From Hanstruepera ponticola (GTDB lineage Bacteria > Bacteroidota > Bacteroidia > Flavobacteriales > Flavobacteriaceae): a DNA stretch of 64,000 nt. Below are positions 14,769 to 26,554 of this stretch, in pieces. Location of the stretch: assembly GCF_012931685.1 (NCBI RefSeq), contig NZ_JABANC010000001.1:1178001-1242000 (forward strand), read 5' to 3'. A program made the position numbers and the translations under genes. The notes under the pieces are model-generated. The model searched no databases. It was not told the origin of the DNA and saw only the letters and a list, made by a program, of their open reading frames with translations. The stretch's first letter is position 1, and every line of letters starts with the position of its first letter.

Positions 14769-15363
14769 GTAAATAAGTCTTGTAAATTGTTGATGTTTTA
14801 AAGTCTTCAAAAGTATCAATGTCATTTAGCATTTCTAACAATTCAAATGAATTATTTTCAGATTTCAACTCTTGAATAGTGTCATGCAATAAACTTGCTG
14901 TACTCCAAGCTTTATTATCAAAAACACAGTTATATAGTTGTTTCATACCAACTAAATAGTAGCCACCATCTTCAGCTGGACCAAAAACAGTGTCATTAGT
15001 TTTAAGAATTTCAAATGCGTTAGTTAAAATAGATTCAGAAATATCGGGTAAATCCGAACCAATAAGAATGATGTTTATATAACCTTTATCGAATCCATCT
15101 TTAAAAGCATTTTTCATGCGTTCGCCTAAATCAACACCTTTCTGAACAGTTTTAAAATCGTTTGGCCATTTCGTTGAAATGATTTCATCTGAAAAATAGA
15201 TATGCTTGTCAACTGGCAAGTATTTCGTGGCTTCTTCGGTTTTATCTACAAGTATTTTGTAAATGGCAAATGCTTCTTGATTTCCAATGGTTTTAGCCAG
15301 GCGTGTTTTTACTTTACCAAGTTTGATGTTTTTTGCAAAAACGATGAGGAGGTTTTTATTCAT
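14749..15363 (-). CDS. TIGR04282/DUF2064 glycosyltransferase-like protein of the arsenosugar cluster
   Basis: A 204-residue GT-A/nucleotidyltransferase-like protein (DUF2064). Start at 15363 is chosen because its ATG overlaps the stop of the rhodanese gene (ATGAATAA); an in-frame ATG at 15375 exists. The N-terminal LLIVFAKNIKLGKVKTRLA resembles the sugar nucleotidyltransferase entry motif, with GSDLPDI and GPAEDGGYYLVGM forming the metal site. Family members are annotated as glycosyltransferases but the fold is close to CofC-type nucleotidyltransferases. I infer that it could activate the sugar-1-phosphate left by the phosphorylase. Confidence 0.82.
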   Translation of the reverse strand: MNKNLLIVFAKNIKLGKVKTRLAKTIGNQEAFAIYKILVDKTEEATKYLPVDKHIYFSDEIISTKWPNDFKTVQKGVDLGERMKNAFKDGFDKGYINIILIGSDLPDISESILTNAFEILKTNDTVFGPAEDGGYYLVGMKQLYNCVFDNKAWSTASLLHDTIQELKSENNSFELLEMLNDIDTFEDFKTSTIYKTYLHDKINN

Positions 15364-15850
15364 AAACACATTCACCTTTAATTAACCACTTGCTCCATTC
15401 CTTTGAAAAGCCATGTATTTTAGAGGTTTCTCCATCATTGTTATAAACTTTAAAACCGTTATTCTTCCATTCAAAAATGCCGCCATACAAATTGTAAACA
15501 TTGGTATACCCTGCCTTTTTAAATTGTTCAGCAATGTCTTCAGAACGTATGCCTAAAGAACAGTACACAACTACTAATTCATTTTTATCAGTCAGTTTAT
15601 TTTCTAAAATTTTAATATCAAAGCTATCATAACCAACATGAATAGCATCTTTTAAATGACTTACTTCATATTCTGGTAGTTCTCTTGCATCTAAAATTAT
15701 AGCTTGTGTTTTAGGCATAGCTAGTTCCTGAACAGATATGTAGGGAACTGAATTGGTATTGTACTGCTTAAGTAAATTCGATAATGTTTCTTGTGAAAAA
15801 CCGGATAATACAACACAAAAAAGAGCGATATGTAAAAAAATTGTTTTCAT
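15356..15850 (-). CDS. Exported single-domain rhodanese
   Basis: A 164-residue protein with a signal peptide (residues 1-19, ending GFSQ) and one rhodanese domain. The active-site cysteine is Cys97 in VVVYCSLGIRSED, so the protein should be a functional sulfur carrier or a thiol-dependent reductase. It should work in the periplasm. Its start shares bases with the arsS stop (TGATG), so the two are translationally coupled. Its position inside the arsenosugar operon suggests thiol or arsenic redox handling outside the cytoplasm, which is inference. Confidence 0.85.
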   Translation of the reverse strand: MKTIFLHIALFCVVLSGFSQETLSNLLKQYNTNSVPYISVQELAMPKTQAIILDARELPEYEVSHLKDAIHVGYDSFDIKILENKLTDKNELVVVYCSLGIRSEDIAEQFKKAGYTNVYNLYGGIFEWKNNGFKVYNNDGETSKIHGFSKEWSKWLIKGECVYE

Positions 15851-16902
15851 CAGGTTACACTTCCTTGGCAGCTACTTCCTGCACCTGCTGTGCAGCCATA
15901 GCAATGTTGCGAAATGACAATAGAACGACCTTCTAGTAATTCAGAGTTATATTCTGAAATATGTTTGGCTTTACTTTTTACAGGTAAATTTAGCATTTGA
16001 TTAAAATCACAATCATACAAATAGCCATCCCAACTCACCGAAATAGTATTCGTACACATAACATTTTTAACAGCTTCTGGATTAAAGGCTTCTACTAACG
16101 AATACATATAATCTTCGTAATTTTCTGAAGCAATTAAATAATCTAAAAATCGACTGATAGGTAAATTAGTTATAGCGAATAAATTATGAAATTGAATATT
16201 AAAATCGTCTAATAAAGCTTTTTTGAAATCCTTTTCCAATGCCATTTGATTCCCAGGTAAAAAAGCTCCAGAAGGATTATAAACTAAATCCAAACGCAAA
16301 TCACTTCCTGGCAAACCGTAACCAATAGCATTTAAATCTTTTAATGCTTGGATTGATTTATCAAAAACACCATTACCACGTTGCTTATCTGTTTTACCTT
16401 TGGTCCAATGTGGCATAGAACTGACAACATGAACATTATGCTTTTTGAAAAATTCTGGTAAATCGTGATATTTTTTATTGGCTCTAATAATGGTCAAGTT
16501 AGAGCGTACAATAAAGTCTTTAATTCCAGCTTTTGAGGCTTCTTCAACAAACCATCTAAAGTTTGGATTCATTTCTGGTGCACCTCCTGTTAAATCTAAT
16601 GTATGTGCTTCAGTTTTTTTAATAACATCAAGACATTGTAACATGGTTTCTTTGGTCATAATTTCTTTGCGATCAGGACCTGCATCTACATGACAATGTG
16701 CACAAACTTGATTGCACATATATCCGACATTTATTTGCAATATTTCAAGTTTGTTTGCTTTTAAAGGGAATTGATTGCTTTCTGCTATTTTATCTTTAAA
16801 TTTTGGCAAGTCACCACTCTGGAAAATACCGTTGGATAATATTTCTACTTGACGTTTACTTTTAGCTAGTTCACTATGACGTTTATGGAGCGATTTCAGC
16901 AT
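15850..16902 (-). CDS. arsS: Arsenosugar biosynthesis radical SAM protein ArsS
   Basis: A 350-residue radical SAM enzyme. The cluster motif CNQVCAHC gives Cys63, Cys67 and Cys70, and the AdoMet-contacting LTGGAPEMNP follows. The C-terminal extension has CTNTISVSWDG-YDCDFNQ and HCYGCTAGAGSSC (Cys334, Cys337, Cys345), the Cys-rich tail that defines this family. ArsS joins a 5'-deoxyadenosyl group to dimethylated arsenic, giving dimethylarsinoyl-5'-deoxyadenosine. It follows the AhpD-like gene with no gap (16903/16902). The identification is strong because both halves and the gene context match. Confidence 0.94.
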   Translation of the reverse strand: MLKSLHKRHSELAKSKRQVEILSNGIFQSGDLPKFKDKIAESNQFPLKANKLEILQINVGYMCNQVCAHCHVDAGPDRKEIMTKETMLQCLDVIKKTEAHTLDLTGGAPEMNPNFRWFVEEASKAGIKDFIVRSNLTIIRANKKYHDLPEFFKKHNVHVVSSMPHWTKGKTDKQRGNGVFDKSIQALKDLNAIGYGLPGSDLRLDLVYNPSGAFLPGNQMALEKDFKKALLDDFNIQFHNLFAITNLPISRFLDYLIASENYEDYMYSLVEAFNPEAVKNVMCTNTISVSWDGYLYDCDFNQMLNLPVKSKAKHISEYNSELLEGRSIVISQHCYGCTAGAGSSCQGSVT

Positions 16903-17238
16903 TTATAAATCTAATTTATTGACTTTATTCATCATCTGCACACCATGTACAAGGGATGCGCCACCTCTTATAGCTCCGGCAACATGAAGTGCTTCCATCA
17001 TTTCTTCTTTAGTAATACCACGTTGCAGACCATCACCAGTGTAAGCATCTATACAATAAGGGCATTGTATGGTATGAGCTACCGCTAACGCAATAAGTGA
17101 TTTTTCTCGTTCCGTAAGGCTTCCTTCTTTAAATACCGAATTATAATATTCGAAAAATTTAGAGCCCAATTCTTCATTCCAGTCTGAAATTTTACCGAAC
17201 TTTCTCAAATCAGCTGGATCGTAATAAGTTTTTTGCAT
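16903..17238 (-). CDS. AhpD/carboxymuconolactone decarboxylase-like protein of the arsenosugar cluster
   Basis: A 111-residue all-helical AhpD-fold protein. The redox pair is Cys59-Pro-Tyr-Cys62 followed by IDAYT, close to the CxxC-x3-H/Y pattern of alkylhydroperoxidase AhpD. Proteins of this group travel with ArsS-type radical SAM proteins, and in some organisms the first cysteine is selenocysteine; here it is an ordinary Cys codon. It is the first gene of the arsenosugar operon and may keep trivalent arsenic or thiols reduced (inference). The 152-base gap upstream is shared with the divergent antiporter gene; I see no clear operator in it. Confidence 0.88.
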   Translation of the reverse strand: MQKTYYDPADLRKFGKISDWNEELGSKFFEYYNSVFKEGSLTEREKSLIALAVAHTIQCPYCIDAYTGDGLQRGITKEEMMEALHVAGAIRGGASLVHGVQMMNKVNKLDL

Positions 17239-17390: not shown

Positions 17391-18647
17391 ATGGATTACT
17401 TTCATATCATTACAATACTTGTTGTTTTATCAGCCCTTTTTGGTTATGTAAATGTGCGATTTTTGAAGCTTCCTAACACCATTGGTTTAATGTTTATAAC
17501 TATTGTATTTACAATGGTCGTTTTTGCATTAAGCTATTTTGATTCAACATTATTGGATGCCGAAAAGTATATCATTACGCAAATTGATTTTAAGGAAGTC
17601 TTACTCGATATTATGTTGAGTTTTATGCTATTTGCTGGTGCACTTCATACTAATTTTGAACAGTTGCGCGTGCAACGATGGCCAGTTTTGGTGTTTGCAA
17701 CATTAGGGGTTTTGGCTTCAACTTTTCTTGTGGGTTATGGGATGTATTTTGTTTTACCATTGTTTGGGTTAGAAATCAAACTTATTTATTGTCTCTTATT
17801 TGGTGCGTTAATTTCCCCAACCGATCCCATTGCGGTTTTGGGAATACTTAAAAATGTTGGTGCGCCTAAACAATTAGAAGCAAAAATTGTTGGTGAATCG
17901 TTATTTAATGATGGTGTTGGAGTGGTAATATTTTTAACCATTTTTAAAGTTGCCCAAATAGGACATGGTGAAATTGAAGTTTCTGAGATATTCGAGTTGT
18001 TTGCTGTTGAGGTAATTGGTGGAATTACTTTAGGTCTCGCAATAGGCTGGATTACATACCGATTAATGAGGTCAATAGACGATTATGATATTGAGGTAAT
18101 TATTACTCTCGCCGCTGTTATGGGAGGAACTGTTATTGCACAAGCTTATCATTTATCTGCACCATTAGCAATGGTAACGGCAGGATTGGTTATTGGTAAT
18201 GATACCGTTAGGAATTCTGCCATGTCTGAAATAACAGAAAGTTATGTCGACAAATTTTGGGAACTTATAGATATATTATTGAACACTATTCTGTTTGTTT
18301 TAATAGGAATGGAAATCCTAGTTTTAACATTTGAAACGAATTATATTTCTGCAGGATTAATTGCTATCCCTTTGGTATTATTATGTCGTTATTTGTCTTT
18401 ACTAATTCCAGTTCGATTTTTTGAAAAACGATTAAATTTTGCACCAAAAACCAATTTAATTATGACTTGGGGAGGATTGCGAGGAGGTATTTCAATTGCT
18501 TTAGCATTAGGATTAACCGTTGATATGGAACGTGATTTGTTTTTGGTGATAACCTATTTTATAGTTGTGTTTTCAATATTGATTCAGGGTCTATCACTCG
18601 GAAAATTGGTGAAACGATATGCTTTAACAGAAACTAAATCAGAATGA
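17391..18647 (+). CDS. CPA1-family Na+(K+)/H+ antiporter, NhaP type
   Basis: A 418-residue transporter with about twelve hydrophobic helices. The ion-binding region ALISPTDPIAV (about 138-148) and ESLFNDGVGVVIF (about 168-180) are diagnostic for CPA1 exchangers, and GGLRGGISIALAL near residue 370 is the conserved late helix. It exchanges sodium or potassium for protons over the inner membrane. Its stop overlaps the start of the Crp/Fnr gene by four bases (ATGA), so the regulator is translated from the same message. The coupling suggests ion or pH balance linked to sulfur stress, which is inference. Confidence 0.88.
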   Translation: MDYFHIITILVVLSALFGYVNVRFLKLPNTIGLMFITIVFTMVVFALSYFDSTLLDAEKYIITQIDFKEVLLDIMLSFMLFAGALHTNFEQLRVQRWPVLVFATLGVLASTFLVGYGMYFVLPLFGLEIKLIYCLLFGALISPTDPIAVLGILKNVGAPKQLEAKIVGESLFNDGVGVVIFLTIFKVAQIGHGEIEVSEIFELFAVEVIGGITLGLAIGWITYRLMRSIDDYDIEVIITLAAVMGGTVIAQAYHLSAPLAMVTAGLVIGNDTVRNSAMSEITESYVDKFWELIDILLNTILFVLIGMEILVLTFETNYISAGLIAIPLVLLCRYLSLLIPVRFFEKRLNFAPKTNLIMTWGGLRGGISIALALGLTVDMERDLFLVITYFIVVFSILIQGLSLGKLVKRYALTETKSE

Positions 18648-19270
18648 TTCAAGAACTCATACATAACTACTCACATCTTTTTGAAAAAGAACTTTTAAAT
18701 GAGATTAATCAAGTTGGCACATTTAAAGAAGTTCCTGAAGGTGATAAATTGATTGAGATTGGCCAATATGTAAGATCAATGCCTTTATTAGTTTCTGGTG
18801 CTGTTAAAATATTGCGTGAGGATAATGATGGTGATGAATTACTCCTGTATTTTCTTGAAAAAGGAGATACCTGTGCTATGACATTAACTTGTTGTTTAGG
18901 ACAAACTAAAAGTGAAATACGTGCCATTGCTGAAACTGATGCTAAATTAATCATGATTCCTATCGAAAAAATGGAAGAATGGTCAGCAAAATATAAAAGC
19001 TGGAGAAATTTTGTTTTTGAGAGTTATCATAATCGCCTGAATGAATTACTAGAAACAATCGATAGTATAGCTTTTTTGAAAATGGATGAACGCTTATTGA
19101 AGTATTTGAATGAGAAAGCTCGTATTTCAAACGATAATATTATAAATAGTACACATCAAGAAATAGCTTATGAGTTGCATACTTCACGCGTAGTGATTTC
19201 TAGATTACTCAAAAAACTAGAAAATTTAGGAAAAGTCGAGTTACATAGAAATCATATTGTTCTAAAGTAA
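18644..19270 (+). CDS. Crp/Fnr family regulator with cysteine-rich sensor and NtcA-like helix
   Basis: A 208-residue regulator. Residues 15-110 form the cyclic-nucleotide-like beta roll; in place of the cAMP phosphate cassette it has DTCAMTLTCCLGQTKS, with Cys77, Cys83 and Cys84. The long dimer helix runs from about 111 to 140. The winged HTH is at 168-200 with recognition helix T180-S-R-V-V-I-S-R187. Arg182, Val183 and Arg187 match NtcA rather than CRP (R-E-R), and NtcA binds GTA-N8-TAC. Four such sites lie at downstream promoters, so this protein is the best candidate activator. The ligand is probably not a cyclic nucleotide; thiol chemistry is plausible (inference). Confidence 0.88.
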   Translation: MIQELIHNYSHLFEKELLNEINQVGTFKEVPEGDKLIEIGQYVRSMPLLVSGAVKILREDNDGDELLLYFLEKGDTCAMTLTCCLGQTKSEIRAIAETDAKLIMIPIEKMEEWSAKYKSWRNFVFESYHNRLNELLETIDSIAFLKMDERLLKYLNEKARISNDNIINSTHQEIAYELHTSRVVISRLLKKLENLGKVELHRNHIVLK

Positions 19271-19279
19271 ATATGACAT

Positions 19280-19323
19280 GTAACTATTGTTACTTATTGC
19301 CTATTTATCAATCTGTATCTTTG
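19280..19323 (+). promoter_or_regulatory. Palindromic operator and promoter of the TauE gene
   Basis: The palindrome GTAAC-TATT-GTTAC is at 19280-19293. A TAnnTTTG -7 box (TATCTTTG) is at 19316-19323, leaving exactly 22 bases between. If transcription starts about five bases after the -7 box, the operator is centred near -41.5, the class II activator position. A TTG at 19297-19299 could be a weak -33 element. Confidence 0.8.
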
Positions 19324-19346
19324 CACACATATTTCATTAACGAATT

Positions 19347-20150
19347 ATGGATTTATTAGAAATTTTCGGATATATAAGTGCTTTAATTATTGGCATATCA
19401 TTAGGTCTTATTGGAGGTGGAGGTTCTATATTAGCTGTGCCTGTGTTGGCTTATTTGTTTATGGTAAATGAAAAAGTTGCAACAGCATACTCATTGTTTG
19501 TGGTTGGCTTAAGTGCGCTAATTGGAGGAATAAAACAACATTTCAAGGGTTATGTTGATTGGCGTACGGCTTTTGTATTTGGCGTGCCAGCCATCATAGG
19601 TGTAACTTTGGTGAGGCATTATGTTGTACCAGCACTTCCAGATGTTTTATTTCATATAGGTGAGTTCGAATTTACACGCCGAATGGGCATGTTTGGACTT
19701 TTCGCTCTTTTAATGATTCCTGCAGCTTTTTCTATGTTAAAAAAACGAGAAGAAAAAGCCGATAATAAAGAAATTAAATATAACTATCCATTAATTCTTC
19801 TAGAAGGTTTAGTTGTTGGAGCCATAACAGGTTTTATTGGAGCGGGAGGCGGTTTCTTAATCATTCCAGCCCTGGTAATACTAGCTAATGTGAAAATGAA
19901 AGTTGCCGTAGGCACATCATTAATCATTATAGCCTTTAAATCCTTATTAGGTTTTTTTCTGGGAGATGCTCTGACCATGGAAATAGATTGGGTATTTCTT
20001 TTAACATTTACTGCTCTGTCATTAATTGGTATCTTTATAGGGAGTTATTTAGGGAATTTTATCGATGGTAATAAACTGAAAAAAGGATTTGGTTACTTTA
20101 TTTTTGTGATGGCTATATTTATTTTCTATATGGAGTTTTTCGTGAAATAG
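19347..20150 (+). CDS. TauE/SafE (TSUP) sulfur-compound exporter
   Basis: A 267-residue membrane protein with seven or eight hydrophobic helices in two homologous halves, each opening with a glycine-rich motif (GLIGGGGSILAVPVLAY near residue 21, GFIGAGGGFLIIPALV near 157). TSUP proteins move sulfite, sulfoacetate, thiosulfate or other organosulfur anions. It lies between the Crp/Fnr gene and the persulfide dioxygenase gene and has its own operator-promoter. The likely role is export of sulfite formed by persulfide oxidation (inference). Confidence 0.88.
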   Translation: MDLLEIFGYISALIIGISLGLIGGGGSILAVPVLAYLFMVNEKVATAYSLFVVGLSALIGGIKQHFKGYVDWRTAFVFGVPAIIGVTLVRHYVVPALPDVLFHIGEFEFTRRMGMFGLFALLMIPAAFSMLKKREEKADNKEIKYNYPLILLEGLVVGAITGFIGAGGGFLIIPALVILANVKMKVAVGTSLIIIAFKSLLGFFLGDALTMEIDWVFLLTFTALSLIGIFIGSYLGNFIDGNKLKKGFGYFIFVMAIFIFYMEFFVK

Positions 20151-20154
20151 ATAT

Positions 20155-20198
20155 GTAACTTTAGTTACTGTCAAACTTTAATTAAGGCTTTAAATTTG
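20155..20198 (+). promoter_or_regulatory. Palindromic operator and promoter of the CstB-like gene
   Basis: The palindrome GTAAC-TTTA-GTTAC is at 20155-20168, just after the TauE stop codon. The -7 box TAAATTTG is at 20191-20198, again 22 bases from the palindrome. The start codon at 20221 then gives a leader of about 18 bases. Spacing identical to the TauE promoter argues for one shared activator. Confidence 0.8.
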
Positions 20199-20220
20199 TA
20201 AAAAATTAAAAAACAGAATT

Positions 20221-21633
20221 ATGAAAATTGAACAAATATATACAGGATGTTTAGCGCAAGGCGCTTATTATATTGAAAGTAAAGGCGAAGTGGCCATTAT
20301 AGATCCATTACGGGAAGTAAAGCCGTATATAGATCGAGCCAAAAAAGATCATGCTAAAATCAAATTCATTTTTGAAACGCATTTTCATGCAGATTTTGTA
20401 AGTGGTCATGTAACCCTAGCAAAAGAAACTGGAGCAACCATCATTTATGGGCCAACTGCAAATCCTTCCTTTGAAGCGCATATAGCTAAAGATAACGAAG
20501 AATTCAAACTCGGTGATATCACTATCATAGCTTTGCACACACCGGGGCACACCATGGAGAGTACAACGTATTTGTTACGCGATGAAAATGGTAAAGATCA
20601 TGCTATATTTAGTGGAGACACCTTGTTTTTAGGTGATGTTGGTCGTCCAGATTTAGCTCAAAAGGCGGCTGATATGACACAAGAAGAATTAGCAGGAATG
20701 TTGTTTGATAGTTTGCGTTCTAAAATTATGCCTTTAGCCGATGATGTTATCGTTTATCCAGCACATGGCGCAGGTTCGGCGTGTGGCAAAAATATGATGA
20801 AGGAAACGGTTGATACGCTAGGAAACCAAAAGAACATGAATTATGCCTTAAGAGCTAACATGACAAAAGAAGAATTTATTCAGGAAGTGACAGACGGATT
20901 ACAGGCGCCGCCTAAATATTTTCCTTTAAATGTAAAAATGAATAAAGAAGGATATGATGATATTGATGAGGTTTTGAAACGAGGTACTCAAGCCTTGTCA
21001 CCAGACGCATTTGAAGCTGCAGCCAATGAAACGGAAGCCATTGTTTTAGATGTGCGTCATCAAAACGATTTTGTAAAAGGACATATTCCAAGATCAATTT
21101 TTATTGGAATTGATGGTGGTTTTGCTCCATGGGTTGGAGCACTAATTGCCGATGTAAAACAACCTATTTTATTGGTTACGCCAAAAGGACGTGAAGAAGA
21201 AACTGTAACACGTTTATCACGTGTTGGATTTGATAATACCCTGGGGTATTTAGAAGGTGGTTTTGAAGCTTGGAAAGCGGCTTCTAAAGATTATGATACG
21301 ATCTCATCGATATCTGCAGAAACATTTAAAGCAGCATTAGAAAAAGACGATATTCCAGTTTTTGATGTAAGAAAAGAAGGTGAGTATGCGAGTTCCCATA
21401 TAAAATATGCACATCTTACGCCATTAGATTTTTTGAATGATCATTTAAGTGAGTTTCCAGAAAACGAAACATTTTATGTGCACTGCGCAGGAGGCTATCG
21501 AAGTGTCATAGCCGCTTCTATTTTAAAAAGTCGTGGCATTCATAATTTAGTTGATGTTGCAGGCGGATTTGGAGCCATTAAAAAAGCAGGTATACCAGTA
21601 ACTGAACATGTTTGCCCATCAACTTTAAAATAA
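20221..21633 (+). CDS. CstB-like persulfide dioxygenase with two rhodanese domains
   Basis: A 470-residue three-domain protein. Residues 1-250 are a metallo-beta-lactamase domain of the ETHE1 persulfide dioxygenase type, with THFHADFVSGH (53-63), HTPGHT and FSGDTLFLGDVGRPD. Residues 260-355 are a rhodanese homology domain that has lost its cysteine (VTPKGREEE in the active loop). Residues 360-470 are a rhodanese with Cys422 in FYVHCAGGYRS. The order and the dead middle domain match Staphylococcus CstB, which turns persulfides into thiosulfate. Cytoplasmic. It has its own operator and a strong terminator downstream. Confidence 0.9.
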   Translation: MKIEQIYTGCLAQGAYYIESKGEVAIIDPLREVKPYIDRAKKDHAKIKFIFETHFHADFVSGHVTLAKETGATIIYGPTANPSFEAHIAKDNEEFKLGDITIIALHTPGHTMESTTYLLRDENGKDHAIFSGDTLFLGDVGRPDLAQKAADMTQEELAGMLFDSLRSKIMPLADDVIVYPAHGAGSACGKNMMKETVDTLGNQKNMNYALRANMTKEEFIQEVTDGLQAPPKYFPLNVKMNKEGYDDIDEVLKRGTQALSPDAFEAAANETEAIVLDVRHQNDFVKGHIPRSIFIGIDGGFAPWVGALIADVKQPILLVTPKGREEETVTRLSRVGFDNTLGYLEGGFEAWKAASKDYDTISSISAETFKAALEKDDIPVFDVRKEGEYASSHIKYAHLTPLDFLNDHLSEFPENETFYVHCAGGYRSVIAASILKSRGIHNLVDVAGGFGAIKKAGIPVTEHVCPSTLK

Positions 21634-21654
21634 TTAGATTTTATATTTTCAATT

Positions 21655-21686
21655 AAAAAAAGAGCGTCTACAGACGCTCTTTTTTT
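21655..21686 (+). terminator. Rho-independent terminator after the CstB-like gene
   Basis: Perfect eight-base stem AGAGCGTC/GACGCTCT at 21661-21668 and 21673-21680 with loop TACA, flanked by an A tract before and a T tract after (21681-21686). Works on either strand; here it ends the CstB-like transcript. Confidence 0.93.
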
Positions 21687-21730
21687 GTATCAAATGTTAC
21701 ATTAAAATTTAACCTCTTTTATTAATTTTA
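21687..21730 (+). promoter_or_regulatory. Palindromic operator and promoter of the HMA-cytochrome operon
   Basis: GTATC-AAAT-GTTAC at 21687-21700 matches the palindrome with one mismatch, starting directly after the terminator T tract. At 21723-21730 lies TAATTTTA, a seven-of-eight-like -7 box, 22 bases downstream of the operator, as at the other three promoters. The predicted start site near 21735 leaves a very short leader and favours the ATG at 21749. Confidence 0.68.
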
Positions 21731-21748
21731 TACTTTAAAATGTTACTT

Positions 21749-22027
21749 ATGAAAAAGACAATAAAAATTCAAAATCTAAAATGTGGTGGCTGCGCGCATA
21801 CTATAAAAACAAAACTTTTAGAATTAAAAGGCGTCAAAAACGTAGATGTCATAGTTAATAAAGATGAGGTTGTTTTTAACTACGATTTAGAACCAATAGT
21901 TTTGGAGTTAAAACAGAAACTAAAGGCACTTGGATATCCAGAAATGAATGACGACAATTCGTTAGTTACTAAAGCCAAATCATTCGTGAGTTGTGCAACA
22001 GGAAAACTATCAAATCATGAGAAATAA
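21749..22027 (+). CDS. Heavy-metal-associated (HMA) domain protein
   Basis: A 92-residue cytoplasmic protein with a ferredoxin-like HMA domain at residues 1-66; the metal-binding pair is Cys12 and Cys15 in LKCGGCAHT. A lone cysteine (Cys82) is in the C-terminal tail. The ATG at 21749 is preferred over 21740 because the predicted promoter lies just upstream. Such proteins bind Cu(I) or other soft metals, or persulfide-reactive thiols. Its last 11 bases overlap the cytochrome gene. Role in sulfur handling, perhaps copper supply, is inference. Confidence 0.85.
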   Translation: MKKTIKIQNLKCGGCAHTIKTKLLELKGVKNVDVIVNKDEVVFNYDLEPIVLELKQKLKALGYPEMNDDNSLVTKAKSFVSCATGKLSNHEK

Positions 22028-23024
22028 GTTAATATTCATTTTAATTTTAAGTATAGTAGTTATCAGTTGTAATAACGGTTCCGAAAAGAAAAATGACTAT
22101 ACAGTGGCAACTTCATTAACAAATGAGAAAGAACATCCTGGTAAAAAACTATTAGAAATTAATTGTAATGTATGTCATAGTCCAACTGCAGGACATGATG
22201 AGCGCATTGCGCCACCGATGATAGCTGTGAAAAAGCATTACTTAACAGACGGAATTTCGAAAGAAGACTTTATAAAGAGTATTCAGGACTTCATGAAAAA
22301 TCCTAATGCTCAGGATTCAAAAATGCCTGCTGCAGTTAGACGTTTTGGTGTTATGCCTAAAGCTTCCTATCCAGAATCAACCATTACTTTAATAGCAGAA
22401 TATCTTTATGAATTTGATATTGAACAGCCAGAATGGTTTGAAGATCATTTTCAGCAAGGTCATGAAAGCGAATCTAGAAAAGGAAATGGTATGGGTAAAG
22501 GAAAGATGAAAGATATACAGCAGGCAACAAGATTAGATTCTAATCTTTCATATAAAGACATTGGGATGAAGTACGCTATGGGAACAAAAGCCGAGCTCGG
22601 AAAAAGCTTGATGATGTCTATTCAGAAAAAGGGAATTATAGAAGCTGTTGAATTTTGTAATGAAAAGGCATATCCAATTACTGATAGTATGGCTTTATAT
22701 TATAATGCCACAATAAAACGCGTATCAGATAAGCCAAGAAATCCGAAAAATGCCGCAAAATCAAAAGAAAAATACTATTTGAAGAAATTTGAAAAGGTTA
22801 TAAGTAATAATCAAGAGCCACAACCTATTGTTGAACATTTATCAGATAAAGTAAACTTTTATTATCCTATTACTACTAATTCTATGTGTTTACAATGTCA
22901 TGGTAAAAGTATAGACCATAATGTTTATAGTACTATAAAACGCTTGTATCCAAATGATATGGCCATTGGATATACTGAAAATGAGGTTCGTGGTATGTGG
23001 AGTATTTCGTTTGATAAAAAATAA
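22017..23024 (+). CDS. Di-heme cytochrome c lipoprotein with DUF3365 domain
   Basis: A 335-residue lipoprotein. Start 22017 is chosen because it gives a signal peptide with lipobox VVISC (Cys18). The N-terminal mono-heme domain has CNVCH (50-54) and a later Met-containing region that may give the second axial ligand. The C-terminal part is DUF3365-like with a second heme site CLQCH (291-295). It should sit in the periplasm attached to a membrane and carry electrons. It is second in the HMA-cytochrome-thioredoxin-TPMT operon, two bases before the thioredoxin start. A role as electron acceptor in sulfur oxidation is inference. Confidence 0.85.
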   Translation: MRNKLIFILILSIVVISCNNGSEKKNDYTVATSLTNEKEHPGKKLLEINCNVCHSPTAGHDERIAPPMIAVKKHYLTDGISKEDFIKSIQDFMKNPNAQDSKMPAAVRRFGVMPKASYPESTITLIAEYLYEFDIEQPEWFEDHFQQGHESESRKGNGMGKGKMKDIQQATRLDSNLSYKDIGMKYAMGTKAELGKSLMMSIQKKGIIEAVEFCNEKAYPITDSMALYYNATIKRVSDKPRNPKNAAKSKEKYYLKKFEKVISNNQEPQPIVEHLSDKVNFYYPITTNSMCLQCHGKSIDHNVYSTIKRLYPNDMAIGYTENEVRGMWSISFDKK

Positions 23025-23026
23025 TT

Positions 23027-23323
23027 ATGAGCAATTTTTTAAGTATTATTAATAAAGATAAACCTGTTTTAATCGATTTTTTTGCAGAATGGTGCGGACC
23101 TTGCAAAATGATGAGCCCAATTCTGAAAGAAGTCAAAGATATAATAGGAGATAAGGTGAGTGTTATTAAAATAGATGTTGATAAGAATCAAGAATTAGCA
23201 GCTCAGCTTCAAGTTCGTGGTGTACCAACACTTATTTTGTATAAAAATGGAAAACAATTGTGGAGACAATCTGGAGTGGTTCAAAAAATTGACTTAATAA
23301 AACTTATAGAATCACATGTCTGA
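23027..23323 (+). CDS. Thioredoxin
   Basis: A 98-residue cytoplasmic thioredoxin with the canonical active site WCGPC (Cys23, Cys26), the buried acidic residue in VLIDFFA and the cis-proline RGVPTL. There is no signal peptide. Length is slightly short of the usual 105-110 because the N-terminal helix is trimmed. It overlaps the TPMT-like gene by eight bases. In this operon it may release persulfides from protein or low-molecular thiols (inference). Confidence 0.92.
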   Translation: MSNFLSIINKDKPVLIDFFAEWCGPCKMMSPILKEVKDIIGDKVSVIKIDVDKNQELAAQLQVRGVPTLILYKNGKQLWRQSGVVQKIDLIKLIESHV

Positions 23324-23909
23324 AATTATCGATTTATCTGAAGAGTTTTGGGATAGACGTTATCAAACTAACGACCTAGGTTGGGATATTGGTACAGTTT
23401 CTAGACCCTTAAAAACCTATATTGATCAATTAACAAATAAGGATCTAAAAATTTTAATCCCAGGTGCTGGAAATGCGTATGAAGCAGAATATTTATGGTT
23501 AAATGGTTTTGAAAACGTTTATGTTATAGACTTATCTCAAACAGCTTTAAATAATTTAAAAAAGCGTTTACCTAAAATGCCCAATAATCAATTAATTAAC
23601 GGTAATTTTTTTGATCTAGAAGAATCTTTTGATTTGATTTTAGAGCAAACATTTTTCTGTGCACTTCATCCTAATTTGCGCTCCAATTATGCCGTTAAAA
23701 TGCATGAATTATTAGAGACAGATGGAAAATTAGTTGGTCTTCTTTTTGATGATCCTTTAAACACTACGCATCCACCGTTTGGAGGTTCTAAAAACGAGTA
23801 TATAAAATACTTCGAGCTCTATTTTAAGATTGAAACATTGGAAACCTGTTACAACTCGATTGATAGCAGAAAAGGAAGAGAACTCTTTATAAAGTTACTT
23901 AATAAATAG
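23316..23909 (+). CDS. TPMT-like thiol S-methyltransferase
   Basis: A 197-residue class I methyltransferase of the thiopurine methyltransferase family. Visible are the N-terminal FWDRRYQTNDLGWD helix typical of TPMT, the AdoMet loop IPGAGNAYEAEYL and VIDLSQTAL, and the late FDDPLN segment. Bacterial TPMTs methylate thiols and selenium compounds. Placed last in a sulfur-regulon operon, it could methylate sulfide or persulfide-derived thiols to less reactive products (inference). It converges with the fatty acid hydroxylase gene with a three-base gap. Confidence 0.85.
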   Translation: MSEIIDLSEEFWDRRYQTNDLGWDIGTVSRPLKTYIDQLTNKDLKILIPGAGNAYEAEYLWLNGFENVYVIDLSQTALNNLKKRLPKMPNNQLINGNFFDLEESFDLILEQTFFCALHPNLRSNYAVKMHELLETDGKLVGLLFDDPLNTTHPPFGGSKNEYIKYFELYFKIETLETCYNSIDSRKGRELFIKLLNK

Positions 23910-23912
23910 TCA

Positions 23913-24791
23913 TTACTTTTTACTAGAAAAGAAACCATAGGTTAATTGTCTCCAGAAATTTTTAGGCATTTGTTCATCACCTTTATAACCTAATTCTATA
24001 GTGCCACTTTCTTCAGGAATGTAGTTGGTTTTAAACAAGTAGTCCCAAACACTCAAACTAATCCCAAAATTCACACCGTAATTTCTGTCTTTTGGTAAGG
24101 CATAAGCATGGTGGTATAAATGCATAACTGGATTGTTGAAAATGTATTTTAGTGGCCCCCAAGTTATTTTAATGTTTGAATGATTGAAATGACCAATAGC
24201 TATGGCTGTAAAATGTACAATGTATGCTTGTTCAGGTTCAAAACCACCTAATATCATGACGCCAAAAACTTTCAGAGGTTTATATAGAATATTTTCCATC
24301 CAATGATAGCGCAAGTGTGCGGCAAACCCCATTTCTTTTACACTATGATGTACTTGATGAAAACGCCATAATACTTCAAACCTATGAAGCATGACATGAG
24401 TAAGCCACTGTACAAAATCTAGAACAATAAAAAAGGTTAATAATTGCAACCACATTGGCCAAACAGATATATCTATTAGGGCTAAACTTTTCATTGAAAT
24501 GCCCAAGTCTTTAAAACCTAATTGCATTACAGTATATACACCACTGATTACAATTGAAAAAATGAAGAAATTAAAGAACATATAAAAGGCATCAAGCCAG
24601 AAGTCTTTTCTAAATATTGCTTGGTTTTTACGCCATGGAAAAGCTATTTCCAAAAACCAAACAACCAAAGAAATAACAATTAATCCCCAAAAGTAATTCG
24701 TGTACCAGGGTATTTCAAAAACAATAGAATTCCAAGTCCAATTTAAAGTGTTTATGAAGGAATCGTAAAATGCTTGTATGTATTTATTCAT
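23913..24791 (-). CDS. Fatty acid hydroxylase/sterol desaturase superfamily protein
   Basis: A 292-residue membrane protein with about five hydrophobic segments and the histidine clusters of the di-iron superfamily: HVMLH, HQVHHS and HLYHH, with one more conserved histidine (HFNHSN). The enzymes hydroxylate or desaturate lipids with O2. It is divergent from the YeeE gene, and the operator at 24872-24885 lies in their shared 139-base gap, so co-regulation is possible. The lipid substrate is unknown. Confidence 0.85.
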   Translation of the reverse strand: MNKYIQAFYDSFINTLNWTWNSIVFEIPWYTNYFWGLIVISLVVWFLEIAFPWRKNQAIFRKDFWLDAFYMFFNFFIFSIVISGVYTVMQLGFKDLGISMKSLALIDISVWPMWLQLLTFFIVLDFVQWLTHVMLHRFEVLWRFHQVHHSVKEMGFAAHLRYHWMENILYKPLKVFGVMILGGFEPEQAYIVHFTAIAIGHFNHSNIKITWGPLKYIFNNPVMHLYHHAYALPKDRNYGVNFGISLSVWDYLFKTNYIPEESGTIELGYKGDEQMPKNFWRQLTYGFFSSKK

Positions 24792-24871
24792 TTTTCTCTC
24801 TCAATGCTTTTGCAAATTTACGGAACATTTCTTTTACAAGTTAAAACTACTGTTAATCGAAGATAAATTTC

Positions 24872-24915
24872 GTAACAAATGTTACATTGCAAATAATTAG
24901 TATTTGTTTTATTTG
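24872..24915 (+). promoter_or_regulatory. Palindromic operator and promoter of the YeeE/YedE pair
   Basis: GTAAC-AAAT-GTTAC is at 24872-24885. TTTATTTG at 24908-24915 is the -7 box (one base off TAnnTTTG) and again starts after exactly 22 bases. The predicted start site near 24920 lies downstream of an ATG at 24904, so that ATG cannot be used from this promoter and the one at 24931 is the real start. Confidence 0.78.
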
Positions 24916-24930: not shown

Positions 24931-25488
24931 ATGGAATATATATTACAACCTTGGCCATGGTGTGTTTCTGGACCAATGATAGCTTTAATTATGTTTTTAT
25001 TAATTATGGTTGATAGGCGATTTGGGATGTCTTCCAATTTAAGAACCATGTGCAGTATCGCTGGAGCAGGAAAGAAGGCCGATTTTTTTAATTTCGACTG
25101 GAAGTCTCAACGTTGGAATCTTATAGTTGTTCTTGGAGCTGTTATTGGAGGATTCATAGCTTCAAATTTTTTAACACCTAATGATGCTGTGCTCATAAGT
25201 GAAAGTACTATTTCAGATTTAAATAGTTTAGGGTTTAAAAGTGCTGGACAAGCGTATTTACCAACTGAGCTATTTAGTATTTCGGCTTTGAGTAATATAA
25301 AATCGTTAGCTATTTTAATAATTGGAGGTTTTCTGGTAGGTTTTGGAGCAAGATACGCTGGAGGTTGTACTTCAGGACATGCGATTTCAGGGTTAAGTAA
25401 TTTACAATTACCTTCTTTAATAGCTGTAGTTGGTTTTTTTATTGGTGGATTGGTTATGATTCACTTTTTATTCCCTTTAATATTTTAA
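24931..25488 (+). CDS. YeeE/YedE family sulfur transporter, first half
   Basis: A 185-residue membrane protein with four or five helices. The conserved helix GARYAGGCTSGHAISG carries the cysteine that in TsuA-type proteins handles thiosulfate, and PWPWCVSGP near the N-terminus has another. The start at 24931 is set by the promoter just upstream. Paired with the gene three bases downstream it forms a split YeeE/YedE importer. Substrate thiosulfate or another sulfur anion is family inference. Confidence 0.87.
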   Translation: MEYILQPWPWCVSGPMIALIMFLLIMVDRRFGMSSNLRTMCSIAGAGKKADFFNFDWKSQRWNLIVVLGAVIGGFIASNFLTPNDAVLISESTISDLNSLGFKSAGQAYLPTELFSISALSNIKSLAILIIGGFLVGFGARYAGGCTSGHAISGLSNLQLPSLIAVVGFFIGGLVMIHFLFPLIF

Positions 25489-25491
25489 GAT

Positions 25492-25905
25492 ATGAAGACA
25501 CTAGTTTATTTAGCAATCGGGATTTTGTTTGGAATTACCATGTTTAAATCTGAAGCTGCATCATGGTTCAGAATTTATGAAATGTTTCAATTTCAAGCTT
25601 TTCACATGTATGGAATTATTGGTTCGGCATTAATTTTAGGCGTATTGATGACTTACGTTATAAAGCGTTTTAAAGTTAAATCCTTTTATAAAAACCCTAT
25701 TCATTTTGAAGCGAAGGACAAAAGTTTTTATAGGTATATAATTGGTGGTATTTTATTCGGTTTGGGTTGGGCTCTAGCTGGAGCTTGTCCAGGGCCCATG
25801 TATACACTGGTTGGTTCTGGATATGTTTCCATGATTATAGTGGTTTTAGCAGCAATGGCGGGAACTTTTGTTTATGGATTGATAAAGGATAAATTACCGC
25901 ATTAA
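25492..25905 (+). CDS. YeeE/YedE family sulfur transporter, second half
   Basis: A 137-residue membrane protein with about four helices, homologous to the C-terminal half of single-chain YeeE. It has the cysteine helix GWALAGACPGPMYTLVG. It follows the first half by three bases and is surely co-translated. Such split two-gene forms are frequent in Bacteroidota and Proteobacteria. Confidence 0.87.
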   Translation: MKTLVYLAIGILFGITMFKSEAASWFRIYEMFQFQAFHMYGIIGSALILGVLMTYVIKRFKVKSFYKNPIHFEAKDKSFYRYIIGGILFGLGWALAGACPGPMYTLVGSGYVSMIIVVLAAMAGTFVYGLIKDKLPH

Positions 25906-25954: not shown

Positions 25955-26554
25955 ATGAAGACACTTACAATTATCCTTACCTTATTTTTATCTTTACCAG
26001 TATTAGCACAAGTTCCAGAACAAGCCGAAGATATTAGCCCACTATTAATTGGTGAGACTATTCCAGATGCAATGTTATTGGATTCAAAAGGCAATCAAGT
26101 TTCTGTAAATTCCCTGATAAAAAATAAGCCAACGGTGTTGGTGTTTTATCGAGGTGGCTGGTGTCCATATTGTAATGCTCAATTATCGGCATTAGGTGAA
26201 TCTGAACAAGAAATATTAGATTTAGGATTTCAAATTATAGCAGTGAGTCCCGATCATGTAGAATCCTTACAACCAACAATAGAAGGAGAACGTTTATCTT
26301 ACGGTGTGTTTGCAGATCCTCAAGCTGAATTTATTCAAGATGTAGGTATTGGTTTTAAAACACCAGAAAAAGCTAAAGGGTACATTTTTAAGAAAACGCA
26401 AAAAGAAGCTTCTGATATTTTACCAGTGCCAACAGTTATGATTGTAGATACCAAGGGTAAAATACTTTATGAATATATTAATCCTGATTATAGTACTAGA
26501 TTAAGTTCGGAATTATTATTGGCAAATCTAATAGCGTTAAAGAAAACACTTTAA
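25955..26554 (+). CDS. Exported AhpC/TSA-family thioredoxin-like protein
   Basis: A 199-residue peroxiredoxin-like protein. Residues 1-19 form a signal peptide (ending LAQ). The active site is GGWCPYC (Cys70, Cys73), a CxxC version of the peroxiredoxin-like fold, followed by the Pro-Thr cis-proline loop VPTVMIVD. It should act in the periplasm on peroxides or disulphides. No GTAAC palindrome precedes it. It converges with the barrel gene, sharing four bases (TTAA). Confidence 0.82.
   Translation: MKTLTIILTLFLSLPVLAQVPEQAEDISPLLIGETIPDAMLLDSKGNQVSVNSLIKNKPTVLVFYRGGWCPYCNAQLSALGESEQEILDLGFQIIAVSPDHVESLQPTIEGERLSYGVFADPQAEFIQDVGIGFKTPEKAKGYIFKKTQKEASDILPVPTVMIVDTKGKILYEYINPDYSTRLSSELLLANLIALKKTL

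Follow-up and report, generated by a model that had tools for sequence, protein, structure and literature searches.

A Crp/Fnr-family regulator and a fixed-spacing operator pattern before sulfur genes in Hanstruepera ponticola and related Bacteroidia

Putative operators and the genes behind them

We analysed a 64,000-nucleotide stretch of the genome of the flavobacterium Hanstruepera ponticola (contig NZ_JABANC010000001.1), hereafter the window, which encodes a Crp/Fnr-family regulator of 208 amino acids (18644..19270, plus strand) and, downstream of it, four copies of a palindrome, treated here as putative operators. The first-pass annotation of this DNA had described GTAAC-N4-GTTAC at four places, and we found it at each of them: perfect at 19280..19293 (operator 1, GTAACTATTGTTAC, plus strand), 20155..20168 (operator 2, GTAACTTTAGTTAC, plus strand) and 24872..24885 (operator 4, GTAACAAATGTTAC, not assigned to a strand), and with one mismatch at 21687..21700 (operator 3, GTATCAAATGTTAC, plus strand). 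Exactly 22 nt lie between each palindrome and a -7-type box on the plus strand, as had also been reported. The box consensus TAnnTTTG is matched exactly behind operators 1 (19316..19323, TATCTTTG) and 2 (20191..20198, TAAATTTG) and with one mismatch behind operators 3 (21723..21730, TAATTTTA) and 4 (24908..24915, TTTATTTG). Since the TAnnTTTG box of sigma-A promoters in F. psychrophilum occupies -12 to -5 (PMC9723704), the palindrome would extend from -48 to -35 and be centred at -41.5, in agreement with the earlier placement. A fixed centre of this kind is what a class II Crp/Fnr promoter should have, the spacing to the box being constant and the start site taken from the box position in F. 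psychrophilum.

Operator 1 precedes a TauE/SafE-family transporter gene (19347..20150, plus strand, PF01925). Operator 2 precedes a gene for an MBL-fold protein with two rhodanese stretches (20221..21633, plus strand; PF00753, PF00581 twice), the architecture of a CstB-like persulfide dioxygenase (PDO). This protein has near full-length matches to 3tp9 and 3r2u, the latter of which we take to be CstB of S. aureus. It shares with CstB the MBL domain, the two rhodanese stretches and the near full-length match to 3r2u, but it is distant in sequence, and its activity is a prediction. Behind operator 3 stands a plus-strand operon of four genes, encoding an HMA-domain protein (21740..22027, PF00403), a cytochrome-like protein with a Tll0287-like domain (22008..23024; PF11845, with weak matches to c-type cytochromes), a thioredoxin (23027..23323, above the TIGR01068 cut-off) and a TPMT-family methyltransferase (23316..23909, PF05724). 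Operator 4 precedes a YeeE/YedE half-transporter gene with an ATG start (24931..25488, plus strand, PF04143), whose product matches the thiosulfate transporter TsuA distantly and below cut-off, and the gene for the second half, a DUF6691 protein (25492..25905, plus strand, PF20398/PF04143). The AhpC/TSA-type peroxiredoxin gene that follows (25955..26554, plus strand, PF00578) is possibly part of the same operon; 0 out of 3 of its orthologues have a site of their own.

The four promoters are not equally well backed by relatives. Operator 3 is the weakest, with a site on only 1 out of 21 orthologues of the HMA gene in the comparative set of 80 loci described below. In genome G003, from the same genus, the TAATTTTA box recurs with a perfect palindrome in front of it, 1.5 kb beyond a different site of that genome; this is presumably the same promoter. 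Operator 4 faces both ways: a minus-strand box (24842..24849, TAGTTTTA, one mismatch), again at spacing 22, points to a divergent minus-strand gene (23913..24791) that is a candidate target. Its product is a predicted membrane protein, labelled by eye, which we take to be desaturase/hydroxylase-like; a site was found on 6 out of 17 of its orthologues in the 80 loci. Elsewhere in the same genome, a gene encoding a Thioredoxin_9 protein is preceded by one more perfect site with an exact box. A neighbouring minus-strand cluster (15356-17238) encodes rhodanese-like, ArsS-resembling radical SAM and CMD-like proteins, all labelled by eye.

The pattern among relatives and its association with the regulator

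The palindrome alone is unremarkable. At one mismatch or fewer it occurs four times in the window, a number reached by 11 out of 100 shuffles, and the whole genome holds four perfect copies against five of a reversed control. We, therefore, discarded the palindrome count as evidence and used the combination of palindrome, spacing and box. When the palindrome may have up to one mismatch and the box up to two, the window contains five hits at spacing 22 (24872 being counted on both strands), while 200 dinucleotide shuffles averaged 0.235 hits with 3 as the highest count, so that none reached five. Every other spacing from 10 to 34 yielded between zero and three hits.

The comparative evidence is far stronger than that from shuffling the window. 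The pattern, at one mismatch or fewer, is present in all five genomes of the genus. We then considered at least 80 regulator loci (the 80 loci), collected by profile search in named genomes and totalling 1.49 Mb; the closest among the matches listed is that of Hanstruepera flava, at 94% identity. These loci contain 472 perfect palindromes over both strands, compared to 8 copies of the reversed control. An exact box follows at a distance of 22 in 118 cases, while no other distance from 0 to 59 occurs more than four times, which bears out the spacing proposed from the window. Across 199 genomes of the family, the exact 44-nt pattern of site and box was found 248 times, in 126 genomes, whereas its reversed control was found twice. 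The pattern is real and beyond chance; even with the unimpressive counts of the bare palindrome in its favour, the idea of chance palindromes has a negligible probability given 0 out of 200 shuffles and 248 sites against 2. Among 335 distinct comparative sites with a perfect palindrome and at most one mismatch in the box, the palindrome and box columns are conserved by construction, as the sites were picked on those features. Among the columns free to vary, T is found at -1 in 79%, T at +14 in 54% and G at +15 in 56%, with little else before the box.

The pattern is coupled to the regulator. In the family, 125 out of 167 genomes with a homologue (E<=1e-20) carry it, compared to 1 out of 32 without (p 5e-15). 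The association follows homologue strength: the pattern is present in 3 out of 14 genomes whose best homologue is weak (E between 1e-20 and 1e-55) and in 122 out of 153 with a stronger one. Twenty-three of the 32 genomes lacking a homologue are smaller than 2.5 Mb, and genome size may account for part of the association. In a wider scan of 375 genomes of the phylum, 33 carry the pattern: 34 genomes have a homologue at E<=1e-60, and 28 of them carry it, compared to 5 of the other 341 (p 2e-31). All 33 belong to the class of the window, and the pattern was absent from every scanned genome listed only as of the same phylum. The genome lists behind these counts were compiled by hand from search listings, and the p values overstate independence because the genomes are related. 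In many genomes (e.g. G105, G111 and G119), sites adjoin the regulator gene itself.

We next asked how often genes of each kind in the 80 loci have an upstream site, allowing one mismatch each in palindrome and box. The first-pass annotation had envisaged that the palindrome might be missing from homologous promoters of relatives. It is instead present before 41 out of 48 TauE genes (85%), 69 out of 92 PDO-rhodanese genes (75%) and 15 out of 27 genes for the first YeeE half (56%), although none of these last 15 is exact in palindrome and box together. Occupancy is also high for genes of SQR-like proteins (15 out of 16), a second SQR-like flavoprotein (5 out of 5), peroxiredoxin (14 out of 14), DUF983 proteins (21 out of 27) and SulP transporters (10 out of 19). 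Further sites precede genes of TolC (3/4), cytochrome/Tll0287 (10/31), YgaP-like transmembrane (TM) proteins (6/18), CydA (2/9 and 1/6), a lipoprotein (2/3) and another type of rhodanese (2/9), whereas NhaP, ArsS and CMD genes (two of each) have none. Only 9 out of 867 unlabelled genes carry a site. The TauE, PDO, YeeE, HMA and cytochrome references were taken from the window. The occupancies for DUF983, SQR, Prx, SulP, FAD2, CydA1, CydA2, YgaP-like TM, LipoL111 and rhodL134, whose references were first seen behind a site, and for TolC, whose reference is a genus locus with a site, lean upwards for that reason. The regulator gene has its own upstream site in 11 out of 88 cases; DUF983 lies directly 5' of it in locus L292 and others, so that, given a site on DUF983, the regulator would be autoregulated.

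Pfam and NCBIfam assign the targets to DUF983, Sulfate_transp, 1-Cys peroxiredoxin, cytochrome bd subunit I, YgaP-like TM, DsrE, Thioredoxin_9 and OEP, with matches to the type III SQR and SoxB models that fall below their cut-offs. At L185, L191 and L220, a site is followed by an operon for small secreted-looking, DoxX-like and DsrE-like proteins (labels by eye), with the gene of a SoxB-like protein last; the SoxB-like protein of L185 scores 256 bits against a cut-off of 550. The OsmC, DoxX, azurin-like, RND neighbour, CcoN, Usp, HPF and desaturase labels were assigned by eye. A wider set comprised 94 site rows in 90 loci, 60 of them hand-picked from part of the site list as distant from the regulator and 30 selected automatically, some beside it, with at least two sites counted twice where loci overlap. 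After TolC-type efflux, considered below, it holds PDO-rhodanese (10), TauE (8), SulP (6), thioredoxin (4), YgaP-like TM (4), Thioredoxin_9 (4), peroxiredoxin (3) and cytochrome bd (3) genes, among others; 17 rows lead to unlabelled genes and 3 to no open reading frame.

The regulator and its recognition residue

The 18644..19270 protein, for which 149 distinct homologues were aligned, belongs to the Crp/Fnr superfamily: PF00027 and PF13545 both score above cut-off, and the top Foldseek hits are of CRP/NtcA type. Its AlphaFold model has a mean predicted local distance difference test score (pLDDT) of 87.9. In the phmmer alignment, the segment CAMTLTCC overlies the phosphate-binding cassette of CRP, where Glu72, Arg82 and Ser83 contact cAMP. 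Here, Met79 and Lys89 stand at the positions of Glu72 and Arg82, and only the serine is kept, as Ser90. The cysteines of this segment are strongly conserved, Cys77 in all 149 homologues, Cys83 in 137 and Cys84 in 131, a conservation that would be expected of a persulfide-sensing regulator. The window regulator has no cysteine before residue 77 and, thus, lacks the N-terminal motif that holds the [4Fe-4S] cluster of FNR. Its recognition helix reads SRVVISR, aligned with TRVTVTR in NtcA and SRETVGR in CRP, and the NtcA equivalog model gives 36.8 bits, far from its cut-off of 244.95. Val183, at CRP position 181, is found in 122 out of 123 homologues with at least 50% identity.

Were Val183 the residue that reads the A of GTAAC, Glu183 homologues would be expected to recognise GTGA-N6-TCAC instead. 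At spacing 22, this second palindrome occurs in 34 out of 375 genomes, at 43 places compared to 10 for the reversed control. For ten of these 43 places, a listed regulator homologue is no more than 10 kb away; one of the ten, in genome G429, accompanies a Val183 homologue and has no labelled sulfur gene behind it. Directly behind the site in 8 out of 16 loci that carry it is a TauE, PDO/rhodanese, YeeE, SulP or peroxiredoxin gene, and L292 has both regulator types and both site types. Some distant Glu183 homologues, then, have GTGA-N6-TCAC sites before the same kinds of gene, but enrichment of GTGA in these first loci is circular, since they were chosen largely for carrying such sites.

A second set (L312-L331), which yields smaller numbers, consists of 20 loci taken by homologue alone, 15 with Glu183 and 5 with Val183; hits were counted per orientation and palindromes once. 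In the Glu183 loci, a box with at most one mismatch stands at 22 in 4 hits among 8 GTGA palindromes, compared to 1 among 97 palindromes of 11 other half-sites, GTAA giving 0 hits among 9. In the five distant Val183 loci, GTAA gave 1 hit among 6 palindromes and TTAA 1 among 3, and the ten other half-sites gave none.

Related arrangements were seen in passing. The H. ponticola genome, in which no second homologue of the regulator was found at E<=1e-20, has GTGAC-N4-GTCAC with an exact box at 22 (C6:1076972, L304:1473), 5' of a thioredoxin-reductase-like/ferredoxin-like pair labelled by eye. Three genomes of one genus (G278, G429 and G528; L296:6068) share a conserved GTGATAATTATCAC site with a box at 22 and, in the one that was read, no labelled sulfur gene behind it. 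In loci L093-L172, ATGA-N6-TCAT occurs at the 22-nt spacing 10 times with an exact box and 32 times with at most one mismatch (e.g. L140:236, L126:783 and L166:13130). These sites precede, among others, genes for cbb3 oxidase-, universal stress protein- and ribosome hibernation factor-like proteins (labels by eye), and are perhaps a second Crp/Fnr regulon with the same layout.

Interpretation and comparison with known systems

We propose, with a probability of roughly three in four and from sequence comparison, that the subfamily of the 18644..19270 protein binds GTAAC-N4-GTTAC at -41.5 and acts as a class II activator of a sulfide, persulfide and thiosulfate programme, sulfane sulfur being the most likely signal. 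A dimer of this Bacteroidia-wide Crp/Fnr protein would occupy the operator and activate sigma-A promoters, the promoter-proximal half-site falling roughly at the place of a -33 element. Its targets would be persulfide dioxygenase-rhodanese, TauE export, YeeE and SulP transport, SQR-like oxidoreductases, thioredoxin and peroxiredoxin, to which the regulon of relatives would add cytochrome bd and a SoxB-like operon. Sulfane sulfur would react with the invariant Cys77, aided by Cys83 in most members, in what is the cAMP pocket of CRP. The first-pass annotation had placed persulfide and thiosulfate handling under a single class II activator, and on comparative grounds this claim has strong support from the fixed spacing, the co-occurrence, the site occupancy and the NtcA-like recognition helix. 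From these we infer binding and activation, the class II mode being suggested by the geometry of the sites and the signal by the targets together with the cysteines.

A bolder form of this proposal is tentative and, in our estimate, falls somewhat short of even odds. In it, the Bacteroidia subfamily would sense sulfane sulfur directly and turn transcription on in response, with its pocket rebuilt around an invariant cysteine. The operator would have changed between GTGA-N6-TCAC and GTAAC-N4-GTTAC along with Glu and Val, while the targets and the -41.5 position were kept.

Several observations weigh against the proposal. The exact pattern is missing from 42 out of 167 family genomes with a homologue, 31 of which have a strong one. 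Within the 80 loci, few sites precede genes of HMA (1/21), thioredoxin (1/7) or the 15356-type rhodanese (2/28), and none precede those of TPMT (0/19) or the second YeeE half (0/25), some of these genes being internal to operons. The commonest target in the wider set is TolC-type efflux (23 out of 94; e.g. L005 and L047-L049), which has no obvious role in sulfur metabolism, so the regulon is wider than sulfur. Accordingly, the possibility, raised at the outset, that sites might be equally frequent before unrelated genes does not hold in the 80 loci, but one type of gene without an obvious sulfur role is a common target elsewhere. AlphaFold confidence is lowest (63-71) exactly at the regulator's cysteines. 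The 22-nt layout is a wider Crp/Fnr layout, since the ATGA-N6-TCAT sites before other genes have it too. As for the recognition residue, L104 has Glu183 at 83% identity and yet GTAAC sites, and neither a GTAAC nor a GTGA site was seen in L302, L308 and L309, which belong to one genus and have Glu183. Among the distant Val183 homologues, of Cys-Gly-Gly type, a perfect GTAAC palindrome lies just 3' of the gene in two out of five, with a box at 22 bearing one and two mismatches, and three out of five have none. Given these exceptions, residue 183 alone does not fix the operator, and a one-residue code held only in part.

The strongest rival keeps the same regulator and operator and changes the signal to oxygen, redox state or another thiol stress, the sulfur genes being part of a wider respiratory or thiol response. 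Cytochrome bd, thioredoxin and peroxiredoxin would also fit such a signal, TolC efflux is among the targets, oxidants could attack the conserved cysteines just as persulfides could, and the related layout serves cbb3-, Usp- and HPF-like genes. However, genes for persulfide dioxygenase, TauE, YeeE, SQR-like proteins and SulP are among the targets with the best coverage in the 80 loci, the lack of a cysteine before residue 77 leaves no N-terminal FNR-type motif, and the sites of the cbb3/HPF-like genes are built from another half-site, ATGA. We consider this reading unlikely, but serious. The same protein could also be a repressor, its site at -48 to -35 reaching into the promoter and blocking the polymerase until sulfide relieves it. 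The sulfide regulators BigR/SqrR are indeed repressors (PMC5823870), but steric blocking does not need a box at one exact distance from the site, and -41.5 is the class II position. Moreover, the operator half-site takes up the -33 region, with a partly conserved TG after it (T 54%, G 56%). Repression, therefore, seems a good deal less probable than a redox signal.

Two further readings assign the sites to other proteins or functions. If another Crp/Fnr protein of the same genome bound them, the neighbouring regulator would be incidental. The genome has four Crp/Fnr-type genes, one of which, on C10, encodes Arg-Pro at the CRP 180-181 positions. We tested co-occurrence with the motif for the window regulator and the C10 paralogue out of the four: the latter has an orthologue in 55 out of 199 genomes, and the motif is present in 30 of these 55 compared to 96 of the 144 others (p 0.14), while the window regulator does co-occur with it and sites lie beside its gene in many genomes. 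The C10 paralogue was rejected as the binder for want of a positive association, and a paralogue in general appears very improbable. A nitrosative-stress regulon of HcpR2 type, with NO as signal and hcp as target, would have the same operator, GTAACnnnnGTTAC, and HcpR2 occurs in Bacteroides (PMC1274295). Against this, hcp (PF03063) had no match in 198 out of 199 family genomes, including that of H. ponticola, and the remaining match lies in a 48-residue frame; the motif, nevertheless, is present in 126 of these genomes. HcpR2 also typically has Pro at the 181 position, where the window subfamily has Val. We rejected this reading on the near-absence of hcp and regard it as the least credible of those that accept the sites as operators.

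There are reports of thiosulfate oxidation by flavobacteria and of higher sqr and pdo transcript levels in Bacteroidota exposed to sulfide (PMC12345210). In the open-licence literature, we found no paper naming a regulator for this response. The regulon proposed here would be a single testable switch, with a promoter signature that can be scanned for in any genome or metagenome, and it ties poorly known genes (DUF983, YgaP-like TM, DUF6691 and TolC-type efflux) to a sulfur switch. Among known persulfide regulators, FisR is a sigma54 activator, and BigR-SqrR and CstR are repressors of ArsR and CsoR type; unlike the window regulator, none is a Crp/Fnr protein. They are comparable in their targets, which include SQR, persulfide dioxygenase, TauE or YeeE/YedE genes, and BigR-/SqrR-type proteins also in sensing by cysteines (PMC7315123, PMC5823870, PMC11211675). 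A review from 2024 on MarR proteins and sulfane sulfur lists FisR, SqrR, CstR, OxyR and CsoR among the regulators that respond to sulfane sulfur, and the words Crp and Fnr are absent from its main text (PMC11211675). If the cysteine sensor is confirmed, the FisR, SqrR/BigR and CstR types would be joined by an activator of the Crp/Fnr family. RedB is likewise a newly described Crp/Fnr subgroup with a redox role, but it is from Rhodobacter, is described as having a non-palindromic recognition sequence and has, in the accessible parts of its description, no noted link to sulfur genes (PMC9603854).

To the first-pass annotation, a Crp/Fnr regulon of this shape was unfamiliar. We found no earlier account, in the open-licence literature, that joins the operator, layout, regulator subfamily, phylum and sulfur genes. 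The shape has precedents, since the palindrome is common to HcpR2 and the layout to NtcA. In cyanobacteria, NtcA is a class II activator whose GTAN8TAC site lies at about -41.5, with 22 nt to the -10 box in cited cases (PMC3898017). The window system shares with it the Arg-Val at the CRP 180-181 positions, the GTAN8TAC palindrome, the 22-nt gap and the -41.5 centre, which is predicted here. It differs in that NtcA responds to 2-oxoglutarate, controls nitrogen genes, belongs to another phylum, uses another -10 element and is only about 21-25% identical to the window regulator in structure alignments. HcpR2 is also a Crp/Fnr protein, and the window sites conform to its operator, which a 2005 study tied to the loss of Glu181 of CRP (Rodionov et al. 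2005, PMC1274295). The same explanation, replacement of CRP Glu181, would apply here, but HcpR2 has Pro (in some species Ser or Gln) where the window subfamily has Val, and its main target is hcp, linked to nitrogen oxides. The pairing of Val or Glu with A or G in the operator is a natural way to test the recognition code put forward in 2005.

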